A stretch of 64,000 nucleotides of DNA from Streptomyces sp. NBS 14/10 (lineage in GTDB: Bacteria; Actinomycetota; Actinomycetes; Streptomycetales; Streptomycetaceae), in assembly GCF_002224125.1 (NCBI RefSeq), contig NZ_NCSM01000056.1:62001-126000 (forward strand), in the 5' to 3' direction. The position numbers were made by a program, and so were the translations under genes. Under the pieces are notes generated by a model that was not told the origin of the DNA, searched no databases, and saw only the letters and a program-made list of their open reading frames with translations. Below are positions 16,311 through 39,950 of this stretch, piece by piece. Each line of letters starts with the position of its first letter. The first letter of the stretch is position 1.

Positions 16311-17084
16311 TCAGGAGTCGGGGCCCTCGATCCGGACGGCGACGCCGTCGAGGATCAGCTCCAGCCCGAGCGAGAAGTCCGCATCGGCGATCGCCGCATC
16401 GGGGGTGTCCGACGGCGGCGCCTCGAACAACGTCGAGGAAAACAGCCGGGCCGTCTCGGGGAAGCGTTCGGGCTCGACGAGCCGCGCCAGCGCGCGACCG
16501 TATTCGCGCTCGGCGTCGGCCTGCCCCTGGCCCTCGGACCTGCCCTCGGCGAGCTCGCTGTACTGCCGAACCGACTGGACCACGTAACCGCTGATCAGCG
16601 ATAGGACGCCGACCTTGTGCGCCCAGTCGAGGCGGGTGCGGGACAAGATCGCCAGAGCGGCCTCCATCCAGGCGATCTGATTCGGCCCGGAGGGTGGTCC
16701 GGAGGTGGGCACGCGCGTCAGCCACGCCCGGCGCCGGAAAACCGCGCGCTGCGCGAAGGCCCAGCCGCGCAGCCCTTCGCGCCAGTCGTCGGCGTCCATG
16801 GCCGGCGGCGCACCCAGGGCGGAGTCGGCCATGAGCGTGAGCAACTCGTCCTTGGATCCGACGTACCGGTAGAGCGACATCCCCGTGAAGCCGAGGCTCT
16901 TGGCGACCTTGGGAAGCGTCACACCGCCGAGCCCGTCGCGGTCGGCGATTTTCACCGCCGCGGCGACGACCAGGTTGACGTCGAGGACCGCGGGCCGCCC
17001 GAGACGCGAGGACTCCGAGATCCCCCACAGCCGGCGAAGCGCCGCCGGAATGAAGTCCTCGCTGGTCATGACTCCCTCGTTCAC
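16311..17084 (-). CDS. TetR-family regulator (TetR_C_1-like)
   Basis: Regulator of 257 residues. The helix-turn-helix is at about residues 30-80: LVVAAAVKIADRDGLGGVTL, PKVAKSLGFTGMSLYRYVGS and KDELLTLMAD. The C-terminal half contains WREGLRGWAFAQRAVFRRRA and FSLGLELILDGV, typical of TetR-type drug-responsive regulators. The start is uncertain: GTG at 17084 or ATG at 17069, which would have a very close GAGGGAG. It is divergent from the DUF418 membrane protein, its probable target; dyads in the gap support this. Confidence 0.9.
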   Translation of the reverse strand: MNEGVMTSEDFIPAALRRLWGISESSRLGRPAVLDVNLVVAAAVKIADRDGLGGVTLPKVAKSLGFTGMSLYRYVGSKDELLTLMADSALGAPPAMDADDWREGLRGWAFAQRAVFRRRAWLTRVPTSGPPSGPNQIAWMEAALAILSRTRLDWAHKVGVLSLISGYVVQSVRQYSELAEGRSEGQGQADAEREYGRALARLVEPERFPETARLFSSTLFEAPPSDTPDAAIADADFSLGLELILDGVAVRIEGPDS

Positions 17085-18480: not shown

Positions 18481-18779
18481 TTACTCCTCACGCAGGTTCC
18501 GAACTGGGCATCCGAGCCCTGGTGCACCACTGAACTTCCCGTCCACCGTGACCAGGTCCGCCCCCAGCGTCTCCGCCAGCGCCACATACGACGCGTCGTA
18601 CGGCCGCATGTTGTGCCGCAGCTCCCAGATCCGCGGCAGGAACGGCACGTGGTCGTACCTCGTCAGGTTGATGGCGCCGAGCAGCTCCAACGCCCGCTTG
18701 TGGCCACGCGCACCTTCTCCGCGACGGCATCCGCGCCGACCAGGAACCCGACCAGCGCTGAGGTGTCCAGCACGATCAC
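18481..18779 (-). pseudogene. Broken vapC-like PIN-domain toxin gene
   Basis: Two pieces of a PIN-domain ribonuclease lie in different frames. The N-terminal piece, from GTG at 18779, reads VIVLDTSALVGFLVGADAVA with the first catalytic aspartate (LDTSAL). After about 20 codons the frame is lost. The rest continues in another frame as LTRYDHVPFLPRIWELRHN, then YDASYVALAETLGADLVTVD, with the later acidic residues, ending at 18481. Intact VapC proteins have about 35-45 more residues between these pieces, so an internal deletion with frameshift is the likely cause. No vapB antitoxin lies upstream; the aldo/keto reductase gene ends there instead. Confidence 0.75.
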
Positions 18780-18805
18780 TGGCGGGGCGGTGCGCCGCAG
18801 CAAGC

Positions 18806-19792
<987 letters not shown>

Positions 19793-19845
19793 GCCGCTTG
19801 GCCTCCTGGGCTCGGAACCGTCTGCCTCGGAACCGTCTGCCCAGG

Positions 19846-19876
19846 ACACTAGGAGCTGGAGCGCGCTCCACGTCAA
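19846..19876 (-). promoter_or_regulatory. MerR-type promoter with 19-bp spacer and palindromic operator
   Basis: On the minus strand TTGACG (19876-19871) and TAGTGT (19851-19846) are spaced by 19 bp. The spacer holds a perfect 14-bp palindrome, TGGAGCGCGCTCCA (19857-19870), abutting the -35. An overlong 19-20 bp spacer filled by a dyad is the hallmark of promoters activated by MerR-family proteins through DNA distortion. It drives the aldo/keto reductase at 18806-19792. No MerR gene is present in the window. Confidence 0.65.
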
Positions 19877-19945
19877 ACGATTTTGACGCCGTCGGCCGGA
19901 ATCAGCGGCCGGGCGGACGGGAGTGACAAGGTCTAGGGTCGGCCC

Positions 19946-20983
19946 ATGGAACATCGTCAACTCGGCGGCAGCGGCCTGATGGTCAGCGAGATCACGTACG
20001 GCAACTGGCTGACCCATGGGGAGTCGGTCGGCAGGGACGCGGCCCTGGCGTGTGTGCGGACGGCGCTCGACTGCGGTGTCACGACCTTCGACACCGCCGA
20101 CGTCTACGCCCAAGGCGCCGCGGAAGAGCTGCTCGGAGAGGCGCTCGGCGGGGTGCGGCGCTCGTCGGTGGAGATCGCCACGAAGGTCTGCCTGCCGACC
20201 GGGGACGGCCCCAACGACCGCGGCCTGTCCCGTAAGCACGTCATGGAGTCCTGCCACGCCTCGCTGCGCCGGCTGGGGACGGACTACGTCGACCTCTACC
20301 AGGCGCATCGGTTCGACGAGCGGACGCCGCTGGAGGAGACGCTTGTCGCCTTCGACGATCTGGTACGGCAGGGCAAGGTGCTCTACTTCGGGGTGTCCGA
20401 GTGGACGGCGCCCCAGATCGAGGCCGCGCTGCGGATGGCCGGGGAGCTCGGACTGCGCGGCCGGATCGTGTCGAACCAGCCGCAGTACAACATGCTGTGG
20501 CGGGTCATCGAGCCCGAAGTCCTTCCGCTGTGCCTGCGGGAAGGCATCGGCCAACTGGCCTTCCAGCCGCTGGCGCAGGGCGTGCTCACCGGTAAGTACC
20601 GCCCCGGCCAGGCTCCCCCGGAAGGCTCCCGGGCCACCGCGTCGGGCCGGGCCCCGAGGTTCGTCAGCCGGGTGCTCGGCAGCGGTCTGCTGGAGCGGGT
20701 GGCGCGGCTGCGTCCGGTCGCCGAGGACGCCGGATTGTCCATGGCCCAGCTCGCGATCGCCTGGGTGCTGCGGCGGCCGGGGGTCTCGGCCACCGTCATC
20801 GGTGCCTCGCGGCCCGAGCAGGTGACCGAGAACGCCACGGCGGCCGGTGTGCGTCTGGAGGACGAGGTGCTGGAGCGCGTCGACAAGGTGCTCGGCGAGA
20901 TGGTCGATCGCGACGCGTCGAAGACCGCGCGCATGATGGCGGTCGAACCCGACTGGCGCGCCGAGCTCGACGGGTCCGCCTAG
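19946..20983 (+). CDS. Aldo/keto reductase (Kv-beta-like group)
   Basis: Aldo/keto reductase of 345 residues, more like the voltage-gated potassium channel beta-subunit/YghZ group than its divergent neighbour. Tetrad residues are in [25 protein letters not shown] and LYQAHRFDE; the QPQYNMLWR and [17 protein letters not shown] segments are typical of this subgroup. NADPH-dependent reduction of small aldehydes or ketones is expected; the physiological substrate is unknown. The 3' end overlaps the convergent GMC oxidoreductase gene by 4 bp. Confidence 0.92.
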
Positions 20984-22845
20984 TCGGCGGCCGGCGGCAC
21001 CTTCGGGACCGGGAGCAGGAGCTTCAGGGCGCCGAAGGCGTCCTCGGGGACGGCGGGGGCTGTGGGCGCGACCGGGGACAGGCGCTTGTACGGGGCGCCC
21101 TGGGGTGGGCGTGGGTCGGGGGTGCCCTTGTTGGGCCAGAGGGACATCGCGCGCTCCGCCTGGGCCGTGATGGTCAGGGACGGGTTGACGCCCAGGTTCG
21201 CGGTGACCGCCGCGCCGTCCACGACGTGGATGCCCGGGTGCCCGTACAGCCGGTGGTACGGGTCGATCACGCCGTGGTCGGGGTCCGTGCCGATGGGGCA
21301 GCCGCCGAGGAAGTGGGCGGTGAGCGGGGTGCCCATCAGTTCGCCGACGTTGCTGCCCGGGAAGCCGTTGATGGACTCGGCGAGGTGGCGGGCGGCCTCG
21401 GCGCCCTCGGGGATGTGGTCCGGGTTGGGTTCGCCGTGCCCCTGCCGGGCGGTGAGCAGGCCCTTCCCGATCCCCTTCGGCTTGCGGTAGGTGGTGAGCG
21501 AGTTGTCGTGGGTCTGCATGACCAGACCGATGATGGTGCGCTCCGACCAGCGGCGGTTGGACATCGAGCGCATCGCGAGCGTCGGATGCCGGAGGTTGGC
21601 CCCCAGGAACCGCAGCCAGCGCGGCAGTCGGCCGCCGTCGGGGATCTGCAGGACGGACAGCAGCCCCATCGCGTTGGAGCCCTTGCCGTAGCGGACGGGT
21701 TCGATGTGGGTGGTGTCGTCGGGGTGGATGGAGGAGGTGATCGCCACGCCGCGGGTGAAGTCGGCCCGCTCCCGCGCCGGGTGGACCTTGCGGTAGCGGC
21801 GGTCCGAGGTCTGCGCGCCGACCAGGGCCTCGGAGTTGGTGCGGGTGAGCATGCCGAGCCGGTCGGAGATCCGGGGCAGCAGGCCCTTGTCCCGCATGGT
21901 GTGCAGCAGCGTCTGGGTGCCGTACGTCCCGGCGGCCAGTACGACCTGGCGGGCGCGCAGCGCGCGCGGCGGGCTCTTGCGGCGGCGGCCCTTGCGGCGG
22001 CGGTCGGTGGGGACGGTGGTGACCCGGTAGCCGCCGCGCCGGTCCTCGCTGATGGCCACGACGGTGGTCATGGGGTGGACGACGGCGCCGGCCCGCTCGG
22101 CGAGGTGGAGGTAGTTCTCGTTGAGGGTGTTCTTCGCGCCGTGGCGGCAGCCGGTCATGCACTCGCCGCATTCGGTGCAGGCCCGGCGGGAGGGGCCGGC
22201 GCCGCCGAAGTACGGGTCGGGGACGCGCTCCCCCGGCGCCGCCGTGGTCGTGCCGTCCGCGTCGTCGCCGTCCCCGAAGAAGACCCCCACCGGCGCCATA
22301 TGGAAGCTCTCGCCCACCCCCATCCGCTCGGCGGCGGCTTTCAGATGCTCGTCGGAGGGGGTCATGGTCTTGTTCAGGCGCGCCCCGAGCATCCGCCGCG
22401 CCTGGTCGTAGTACGGGGCGAGCTCCGCCCGCCAGTCGGTGATGGCGCCCCACTGCGGGTCCCGGAAGAAGGGCTCGGGCGGTACGTAGAGGGTGTTGGC
22501 GTAGTTGAGCGAGCCGCCCCCGACCCCGGCTCCCGCCAGCACCATGACCTTGCCCAGGACGTGGATGCGCTGGATGCCGTAGCAGCCGAGGGCGGGGGCC
22601 CACAGATAGTCGCGGAGGTGCCAGGAGTTCCTGGGCAGGGTCTCGGGGGTGAAGCGGCGGCCCGCCTCCAGGACCCCGACGCGGTACCCCTTCTCGGTCA
22701 GGCGCAGGGCCGTCACCGAGCCGCCGAAGCCCGAGCCGACGACGATCACGTCGTAGTCGTACGCGCCGTCGCGCACGTCGTCCTCCGCGCCGTCGTACGC
22801 GTCGTCGCGCACGTCGTTGTCCACAGCGTCGTACGTGTCATCCAC
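20980..22845 (-). CDS. GMC-type FAD oxidoreductase (ChoD-like)
   Basis: Flavoprotein of 621 residues. The FAD-binding motif [17 protein letters not shown] (about 33-49) follows an acidic N-terminal tract with a 13-residue duplication (DVRDDAYDG and DVRDGAYDY). A Cys-rich element [19 protein letters not shown] (about 222-240) is characteristic of the mycobacterial ChoD/long GMC subgroup. The C-terminal GMC motif includes [11 protein letters not shown] and [19 protein letters not shown]. ChoD relatives oxidise sterol-like or alcohol substrates, but the substrate here is unproven. It lies 28 bp downstream of the aldehyde dehydrogenase, which could take its aldehyde product. Confidence 0.88.
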
Positions 22846-37724: not shown

Positions 37725-39950
37725 ATGAAATCACTTACTGTGCGGGTGGCTCGCTGGAGCGCGCTCCACCCCTGGCGGGCGGTTGTCGGATGGCTTGTGT
37801 TCGTGGCGCTGTGCCTGGTCGTCGGCGGGGCCGTCGGCATCAACAGCGCCAAGACGGCGGACTACCGCGTCGGCGAGGCGGGCCGGGCCGAGGCCATGGC
37901 GGCCGAGGGGCATCTGGAGCGCCGGTCCACTGAGCAGGTGTTGATCTCCGCCCGTTCCGGCGCCCTCGACAGCCGGGTCGACAAGCAGGCCGCCGAGGCG
38001 GCAGCCCGGGACCTCACGGCGCGGATGAAGTCACTGCCCGAGGTCGCGAGCGTGGCCGCGCCGCTGTGGTCCGGCGACGGCCGGATCCTCATGGTCGAGG
38101 TGGCCATCAAGGGCGAGGAGCTGGACGCGGACGCCAAGGTCGGCGCGCTGGTCGCACAGACGGCCGCCGTCCAGAAGTCCCACTCCCGGCTGCTGATCGA
38201 GGAGACCGGAAGTCCCTCCACAAGCAAGGGGGTCGATCAGCAGCGCGACGACGACCTGGCGCTGTCCGAGGCGATCACACTTCCGGTCACGCTGATCACG
38301 CTGCTGGTGGTCTTCGGTTCGGTCGTCATGGCCGCGGTGCCGCTGCTGCTCGCCCTGTCGTCGATCGCGGCGGCGATCGGTCTGTCGATGGTGGTCTCGC
38401 ACCTGTCCCCCGACGTCGGGGTCGGCACGAACGTCATCCTGATGATCGGTCTCGCGGTCGGCGTCGACTACACGCTCTTCTACCTCAAGCGGGAGCGCGA
38501 GGAGCGGGCCCGCGGCGGCGGCCGGTTGAGCGCCGAGGCGCTGGTGGAGCTGGCGGCGGCCACCTCGGGTCATGCGGTGGTGGTGTCGGGTCTTGCGGTC
38601 GTCGCCTCCACCGCGACGCTGTATCTGGCCTCCGACGTGATCTTCTCCTCGCTCGCCACCGGCACCATCGTGGTCGTCCTGGTCGCCGTGGCCAGCTCCC
38701 TGACGGCGCTGCCCGCGCTGCTGGTCGTACTCGGCAAGCGGGCGGAGCGCAGGGCACGGCGCCGGGCGGAGCGTGGTAAGCCGGCCCGGCGGGCGCGCGG
38801 CGAGGGCGGCGGCCGGATCTGGGCGGCGCTGTTGCGGCCCGCCGCCCGGCATCCCCTCGCCACGCTCTGCGTCTCGGCTCTCGCGCTGCTCGCCCTCGTC
38901 CTTCCGCTGACGGGGCTGAAGATCACGGAGATGAGCCGGGACACCCACTCCCGCGAGATCCCCGCGATGCGGGTGTACGACCGTCTCAACGAGGCGTTTC
39001 CGGAGCAGAGGGTCACACACGACGTCGTCGTACGCGCCGACGCCTCGCGCACCCGTGAGGTCACCGGGGCGCTGCGCGACCTCGCCGAGCGGGCCGACCG
39101 GGATCCGCTGTTCGCCGACGGCTCGCGGATCGTGACGTCGGCCGACCACCGGATCAGCGTGCTGCGGCTGAAGGTGCCGTATCTCGGCAACTCCCGTCAG
39201 GCCAAGACATCCCTGGACCATCTGCGCCACGACTATCTGCCCGCCACCGTCGGCCGGATCGCGGGCGCGGAGTACGGGGTCAGCGGTGACGTCGCCCGCT
39301 ACGCCGACTATCCCGCACACCAGAACAGCAAACTGCCCCTGGTGATCGGCGCGTTGCTGCTGGTGACGTTCGCGATGACCGTGTACGCCTTCCGTTCCGC
39401 GGTGCTCGGTCTGATCGGTGTCGTACTGAACCTGCTGTCGGCCGCGGCCGCGCTCGGGCTGCTCGTCCTCGTCTTCCAGGGCACCTGGGCCGAGGGGCTG
39501 CTGGACTTCCACTCCACCGGCTCGATCGGATCGCGCGTCCCGCTCTTCCTCTTCGTGATCCTCTTCGGGCTCTCCATGGACTACCAGGTGTTCGTGGTCA
39601 GCCGGATCAGGGAGGCCGTGCTCGCCGGCGTTCCCACCCGGCAGGCGGTGCTGGACGGTCTCCGTACCTCGGCGAGCGTGGTCACCAGCGCCGCGGTCGT
39701 GATGACGACCGTGTTCGTGAGCTTCGTCTTCCTGCACATCATCGAGATGAAGCAGATCGGCTTCGTGCTGGCGGCGGCCGTGCTGCTGGACGCCTTCGTC
39801 GTACGGATCATGGTTCTGCCCTCGGCCCTGCTGCTGCTCGGCGAGGCGACCTGGTGGCCGTCGCGGCCGGGGCCGTCGCGGACGCGGGGGCAGGCCGCGG
39901 CCGTGCCGGGGCCCGCGGACCGTGAGCACCCGGTGGTCGACGTACGTTGA
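37725..39950 (+). CDS. MMPL-family (RND superfamily) transporter
   Basis: Membrane transporter of 741 residues with the MMPL layout: one helix near residue 20, a large extracytoplasmic loop, five helices (about 185-345), a second loop, and five helices (about 545-720). Family marks include GVGTNVILMIGLAVGVDYTL and LFVILFGLSMDYQVFVVSRI, with the proton-relay Asp-Tyr pairs in both. Actinobacterial MMPL proteins export lipids, siderophores or antibiotics, and the cargo cannot be told here. A two-component system follows directly, its kinase start lying within 10 bp of this stop. Confidence 0.93.
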   Translation: MKSLTVRVARWSALHPWRAVVGWLVFVALCLVVGGAVGINSAKTADYRVGEAGRAEAMAAEGHLERRSTEQVLISARSGALDSRVDKQAAEAAARDLTARMKSLPEVASVAAPLWSGDGRILMVEVAIKGEELDADAKVGALVAQTAAVQKSHSRLLIEETGSPSTSKGVDQQRDDDLALSEAITLPVTLITLLVVFGSVVMAAVPLLLALSSIAAAIGLSMVVSHLSPDVGVGTNVILMIGLAVGVDYTLFYLKREREERARGGGRLSAEALVELAAATSGHAVVVSGLAVVASTATLYLASDVIFSSLATGTIVVVLVAVASSLTALPALLVVLGKRAERRARRRAERGKPARRARGEGGGRIWAALLRPAARHPLATLCVSALALLALVLPLTGLKITEMSRDTHSREIPAMRVYDRLNEAFPEQRVTHDVVVRADASRTREVTGALRDLAERADRDPLFADGSRIVTSADHRISVLRLKVPYLGNSRQAKTSLDHLRHDYLPATVGRIAGAEYGVSGDVARYADYPAHQNSKLPLVIGALLLVTFAMTVYAFRSAVLGLIGVVLNLLSAAAALGLLVLVFQGTWAEGLLDFHSTGSIGSRVPLFLFVILFGLSMDYQVFVVSRIREAVLAGVPTRQAVLDGLRTSASVVTSAAVVMTTVFVSFVFLHIIEMKQIGFVLAAAVLLDAFVVRIMVLPSALLLLGEATWWPSRPGPSRTRGQAAAVPGPADREHPVVDVR

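Follow-up and report, generated by a model that had tools for sequence, protein, structure and literature searches.

Organization of the reductase locus

The window, that is the whole 64,000-nt stretch of Streptomyces DNA analysed here, carries an aldo/keto reductase (AKR) gene on its minus strand together with an upstream promoter element and a second, divergent AKR gene (Table 1). By sequence, the nearest solved structure to the reductase is perakine reductase (3uyi, E 1.2e-94). A PIN-domain (VapC-like) gene at 18481–18797 on the minus strand (N-terminal part VIVLDTSALVGFL) is split over two frames and scores 23.5 bits against PF01850, just below the 23.6 cut-off; either a decayed gene or an assembly indel may account for the split.

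Table 1 Features of the reductase locus and the candidate regulator gene. Positions without a prefix are those of the window; C95 is another contig of the same genome.
Feature	Position	Strand	Remarks
-35 element TTGACG	19871..19876	minus	read directly; TTGAC invariant in the window and 9 relatives
Spacer, 19 bp, TGGAGCGCGCTCCAGCTCC	19852..19870	minus	read directly
Perfect 14-bp dyad TGGAGCGCGCTCCA, putative MerR operator	19857..19870	no strand	spacer begins with the dyad
-10 element TAGTGT	19846..19851	minus	read directly
Predicted transcription start region, 7–9 nt after -10	19837..19839	minus	inferred from sister promoters
Ribosome-binding site AGGAGG of the reductase	19802..19807	minus	AGGAG invariant among aligned relatives
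AKR, 328 aa, proposed regulated gene	18806..19792	minus	PF00248, E 6.5e-82
Second AKR	19946..20983		divergent; 39% identical to the reductase
TetR gene	16311..17084
NmlR-like MerR, candidate regulator	C95:307365..307814		150 aa with the chosen start; PF13411, PF00376 and PF09278 only

The initial annotation had described TTGACG and TAGTGT at 19-bp spacing, with a 14-bp palindrome at the start of the spacer, and every element and coordinate proved exact on the minus strand. Its further statement that the 64 kb hold no MerR gene was borne out. A MerR profile built here found none at E ≤ 1e-6 among the window's open reading frames of at least 80 aa, and none of the 44 PF13411 matches in the genome falls within C80:62001–126000, which is the window. 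The same contig has a PF13411 match at C80:1016–1219, about 81 kb from the promoter.

Geometry of the promoter element

Spacers of 19–20 bp are typical of MerR-family promoters, and a spacer of 19 bp is unfavourable for unaided polymerase (excerpt of PMC9909328). A further mark of the family is a dyad centred 7–8 bp from the 3' end of the -35 box, with 7 bp the value for 21-bp sites (excerpt of PMC5045206). In the window the spacer is 19 bp long and the dyad within it is centred after spacer base 7, a distance of 7 bp by the same measure. The outermost pair of this dyad is G/G, not the C-G or T-A pair found in 31 of 49 distinct sites (own site included), and the dyad core is intact. The -10 reads TANNGT in all 34 strict sites found at related AKR loci, though the search pattern fixes only TANNNT. 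A generic sigma-70 scan restricted to spacers of 16–18 bp returned no promoter within 18500–21500, as would be expected of a 19-bp spacer.

The -10 is 53 nt from the reductase ATG. A 15-bp perfect tandem duplication (CTCGGAACCGTCTGC twice) occupies 19811–19840 of the intervening leader; among nine aligned relatives L041 alone also has a longer leader, and its duplication looks independent. An RNA hairpin with 8-bp arms at 19804–19811 and 19839–19846 could sequester AGGAGG, an option we set aside since the 19839–19846 arm lies almost wholly before the predicted start.

The window holds a single instance of TTGACN-N19-TANNNT whose spacer contains a perfect dyad of at least 12 bp, and 200 dinucleotide shuffles gave none. 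The 14-bp palindrome must be interpreted with more caution. On its own it is weak evidence, with two or more matches at up to two mismatches in 25 of 100 shuffles, and it is the combination with the -35, the spacing and the -10 that is special. The 12.1-Mb genome holds two exact copies of the palindrome, both in the window. The second, at 37755–37768, lies inside the start of an MMPL-family reading frame and is probably a coding coincidence; we therefore rejected a local regulon built on the two copies.

Conservation among reductase relatives

Relatives were taken as the best 80 of 591 AKR relatives, and the 28 closest (L033–L060) encode proteins 79–93% identical to the reductase. According to a leave-one-out weight matrix built from the 34 strict sites of AKR-relative loci, the element is kept in 27 of these 28 loci. 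Scores were at least 31 in 26 of them and 7.7 in L048, a weak case where the -35 is lost; the background over the 28 loci, with each locus shuffled 30 times by single bases, reached -1.7 at most. Loss of the palindrome from close relatives that keep the reductase, which the initial annotation had held to count against its reading, was looked for; of the 28 loci, L043 (S. roseus) alone has lost the element. When the window was aligned with nine of the 28 relatives, 20 of 31 columns were invariant inside the site and 2 of 60 outside it, a count that omits the last 22 window bases with the ribosome site and start codon. In a DNA search the block appears as a separate match (query 144–182) in G084, G173 and G175.

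Spacer length appears to be held rigidly. With a search open to 15–26 bp across 52 loci (L033–L084), all 45 sites found have a spacer of exactly 19 bp, and seven loci gave no match (L043, L048, L055, L070, L073, L081, L083).

Among the other 52 loci (L061–L112), the element lies directly before the AKR gene in four Nocardia loci (L068, L076, L077, L080) and before a merR gene upstream of the AKR in 16. AKR upstream regions in L087, L090, L098 and L108 carry a variant dyad, TTCGAG-N4-CTCGAA, in similar geometry (scores 11–33), a possible sister operator class. In the remaining loci no element was found.

Sister sites in Streptomyces and other actinobacteria

Across 295 Streptomyces genomes, the strict pattern TTGACNTGGAGNNNNCTCCAN5TANNNT is matched exactly at 66 places, spread over 61 of the genomes, and the reversed pattern nowhere. 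That only 61 genomes have it counts against the reading, although variant sites escape so strict a pattern. All 30 of the exact sites that we examined lie in sense before a gene. The genes that follow comprise 14 AKRs, seven MerRs, five short-chain-dehydrogenase-type (SDR) proteins, three of the CMD family and one luciferase-like oxidoreductase, with AKR and MerR families assigned by blastp and the others by one Pfam example each plus resemblance.

An in-frame start codon stands 7–9 nt after the -10 in 14 of these 30 promoters (seven MerR, five SDR, two CMD), and in none of the 14 AKR genes. The 14 mRNAs are apparently leaderless, and the start of the promoter class was inferred from these start codons; the predicted start region of the reductase follows from them and agrees roughly with the start that the initial annotation had expected, some 7 bp downstream of 19846. 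Beyond the genus, merR-akr operons were aligned at 17 loci, and 16 of them, in Amycolatopsis, Kutzneria, Prauserella and Actinosynnema, have this element in front; at the remaining one, Actinocrispum L070, the strict form of the element was not found. Two of these operons, L065 and L069, encode AKRs with 71–72% identity to the window's reductase.

A scan of the window's own genome with up to three mismatches gave eight places against two for the reversed control, and matches at three mismatches are not safe. One site (C69, one mismatch) precedes another AKR. Two sites with two mismatches lie before an SDR (C43) and a 3-hydroxyisobutyrate-dehydrogenase-like gene (C95:315501), and one with three lies before a CMD protein (C53); in each of these the ATG is 7–9 nt after the -10, and the families were assigned by Pfam. 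Sites beside MerR genes (C82 and C95:307888) have three mismatches each, and the site on C13 is antisense inside another reading frame.

A candidate regulator in trans

The initial annotation had suggested a search for MerR genes that are preceded by this site. This search was positive in the relatives and, with a one-base shift, in the window's own genome, where it leads to the MerR gene on contig C95. The element thus stands before MerR genes in three settings, namely C95 itself, seven of the 30 genus sites and the merR-akr operons. Upstream of the C95 gene, TTGCTTGGAGTGCACTCCAAGTCAATAGCGT matches the merR-type pattern with no mismatch; five other places in the genome match at three mismatches, and the control matches at four places. 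Compared with the reductase promoters, those of the C95 gene and its orthologues have the dyad shifted by one base towards the -35. This shift may mean that one protein acts differently at the two promoters, or that different MerRs act on them.

C95 also provides the best own-genome relative of the Amycolatopsis operon MerR (C95:307395–307730, 49%). With a cut-off of E ≤ 1e-30, 116 of 121 Streptomyces genomes have a C95 orthologue, including all 23 of the 121 that bear an exact site. Among 30 orthologue loci examined (own included), a dyad promoter precedes the gene in 20 by pattern and in eight more, on inspection, in variant form or shifted position; of the last two loci, L211 has a partial promoter and L200, over the stretch viewed, lacks one. 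An AKR gene follows the C95-type MerR within 1.5 kb in 26 of the 30 loci, and none does so in the own genome, L196, L200 or L207. Given the 26 loci, merR plus akr is the usual pair, and this pair is uncoupled in the window's genome, with a MerR that lacks its AKR and a reductase that has its site elsewhere.

The C95-type proteins (L192–L221) share a conserved N-terminal extension (~28 aa) that carries an HPRPxGQD-like motif and, in 28 of 30 (not L197 or L210), one Cys. At the position aligned with the Cys54/Cys52 sensor they have Lys (Arg in L217). Lys also stands there in the 17 MerRs from the operons of Amycolatopsis and related genera, all of which have a Cys in the C-terminal helix. Since an N-terminal or C-terminal Cys is present and Cys54 is absent, a thiol sensor is possible in these MerRs, and it would differ from that of NmlR.

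Alternative explanations

Our preferred reading, to which we give a probability of about 0.85, is that the element is a MerR-type activatable promoter of the reductase under control in trans, most likely by the C95 MerR, with binding and activation as predictions. The MerR-type geometry proposed in the initial annotation is supported by the shuffles, by conservation and by recurrence of the element before MerR genes.

Another MerR might serve the promoter instead, either the one at C82:17458–17808 or several paralogues sharing the dyad, a possibility that we regard as rather unlikely. The stretch preceding the C82 gene contains TTGACC-N20-TAGCGT with a TTGGAGCGTACTCCA dyad, and a third MerR type in some Streptomyces has leaderless TTGAC..GGAG..CTCC promoters, which suggests that several MerRs could read similar dyads. 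Against this, the C82 MerR is restricted to 11 of 121 genomes, two of them among the 23 that bear a site, and nothing in the own genome is closely related to the third type, whose L167 example finds its best matches there in C95 (46%) and C73 (40%). The C73 MerR was rejected as first-choice regulator on the grounds that its adjoining AKR has a different dyad, CTAGA/TCTAG. In L053, L055, L058 and L060 the reductase has a relative of the C73 MerR 1.5–2.9 kb upstream of it (56% identity between L058 and C73). At C73:30047–31453 (L237) the own MerR sits beside an AKR with the different spacer dyad TTGATCTAGAGCCGAGTCTAGTTCCTAGGGT; this locus suggests a separate MerR-AKR specificity.

The dyad could also be the operator of an ordinary TetR-like repressor, so that the gene would be switched on by derepression, not by untwisting. 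Repressors often have their operator between -35 and -10, and a TetR gene is nearby (Table 1). We consider this very improbable, as the spacer is fixed at 19 bp in every site found, a length unfavourable for unaided polymerase (excerpt of PMC9909328), and as the same element recurs before MerR genes. A weight-matrix scan of the whole window found no second site above 0, so the TetR gene has none near it.

In Streptomyces, spacers as long as ~19 bp are tolerated, and the element could in principle be an ordinary housekeeping promoter whose spacer is a little long and whose palindrome arose by chance. This is contradicted by conservation of the dyad along with the -35 and -10, by the position of the 30 examined copies before genes, by the 66 exact sites against none reversed and by the fixed spacer, and we give it hardly any weight. 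A chance palindrome is excluded by the shuffles, the reversed-pattern control, the fixed spacer and conservation. We likewise rejected, as next to impossible, a true operator at the second inverted repeat CGTCAAA-N4-TTTGACG (19871–19888), which overlaps the -35 and has perfect 7-bp arms but is not conserved, with no exact match in the 28 loci L033–L060 and one or more matches at up to three mismatches in 50 of 100 window shuffles.

Proposed mechanism and implications

We hypothesize that, without a signal, the 19-bp spacer would hold the -35 and -10 out of phase, so that RNA polymerase would open the promoter poorly. A MerR dimer would sit on the TTGGAG-N4-CTCCAA-type dyad in the spacer and, once triggered, would kink and untwist the DNA and turn the reductase gene on. 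The C95 MerR, whose own promoter carries the same dyad, is the most likely regulator in this genome and would act in trans on a small group of oxidoreductase genes. Its signal is probably a reactive carbonyl, a quinone or another electrophile or oxidant, and the targets (a perakine-reductase-like AKR, SDR and CMD proteins) would fit carbonyl or redox stress, in keeping with the electrophiles or oxidants suggested by the initial annotation.

A wider picture, which we hold to be about evenly balanced between right and wrong, is an actinobacterial MerR regulon of carbonyl-handling enzymes (AKR, SDR, CMD and luciferase-like). Its regulator in Streptomyces would be a near-universal MerR of NmlR-like type, without the NmlR sensor Cys but with a conserved N-terminal extension that has a single Cys. 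Many of its targets would be leaderless, and the window would represent a stage in the uncoupling of merR and reductase. The exact motifs TGGAGCGCGCTCCA, CTTGGAGTGCACTCCAAG and TTGGAGTGCACTCCAA were not found in the open-access literature, and word searches there for MerR combined with aldo-keto reductase, CMD, Streptomyces or a spacer of 19 bp gave no paper that was to the point, judged by title. The kind of promoter is known, and a MerR regulon of carbonyl enzymes was not met in the open-access papers searched.

These comparisons turn a single suggestive promoter into a testable regulon, with a near-universal Streptomyces MerR, a 31-bp element and few oxidoreductase targets, which would parallel NmlR/AdhR in actinobacteria while relying on a different sensor. 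Even with no regulator gene nearby, a case for a MerR-type promoter can be made from comparative data. The tight off-state expected of this promoter geometry could also serve in a biosensor.

Comparison with known systems

The window's promoter resembles the activatable promoters of the MerR family (merTPCAD and the targets of CueR, SoxR and BmrR) in its 19-bp spacer, in the dyad within that spacer and in the distance of the dyad centre from the -35, which is that of 21-bp sites (excerpt of PMC5045206). It differs from them in that its target has no adjoining regulator gene. A TTGGAG-N4-CTCCAA-type dyad was not met in the excerpt of PMC5045206, a source that treats metal sensors.

NmlR/AdhR (HI_0186 of H. 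influenzae, or HiNmlR, and AdhR of B. subtilis) are the nearest relatives of the candidate regulator. NmlR is the best PDB match of the C95 MerR (5e01/5d8c, E ~3e-24), and the best NCBIfam match is NF041849, at 103.3 bits, far below the 175 bits required for NmlR. The C95 MerR shares with this group a MerR helix-turn-helix followed by a short coiled coil with no separate effector domain, as well as oxidoreductase targets. Unlike the NmlR clade, where Cys54 is absolutely conserved (excerpt of PMC4776306), it has Lys at this position (Arg in one orthologue), and its target here is an AKR, whereas the target there is the dehydrogenase adhC. The merR-akr operons of Amycolatopsis, Kutzneria and Prauserella have the same promoter element as the window's reductase; there merR is in cis, whereas in the window's genome merR and reductase lie on different contigs.
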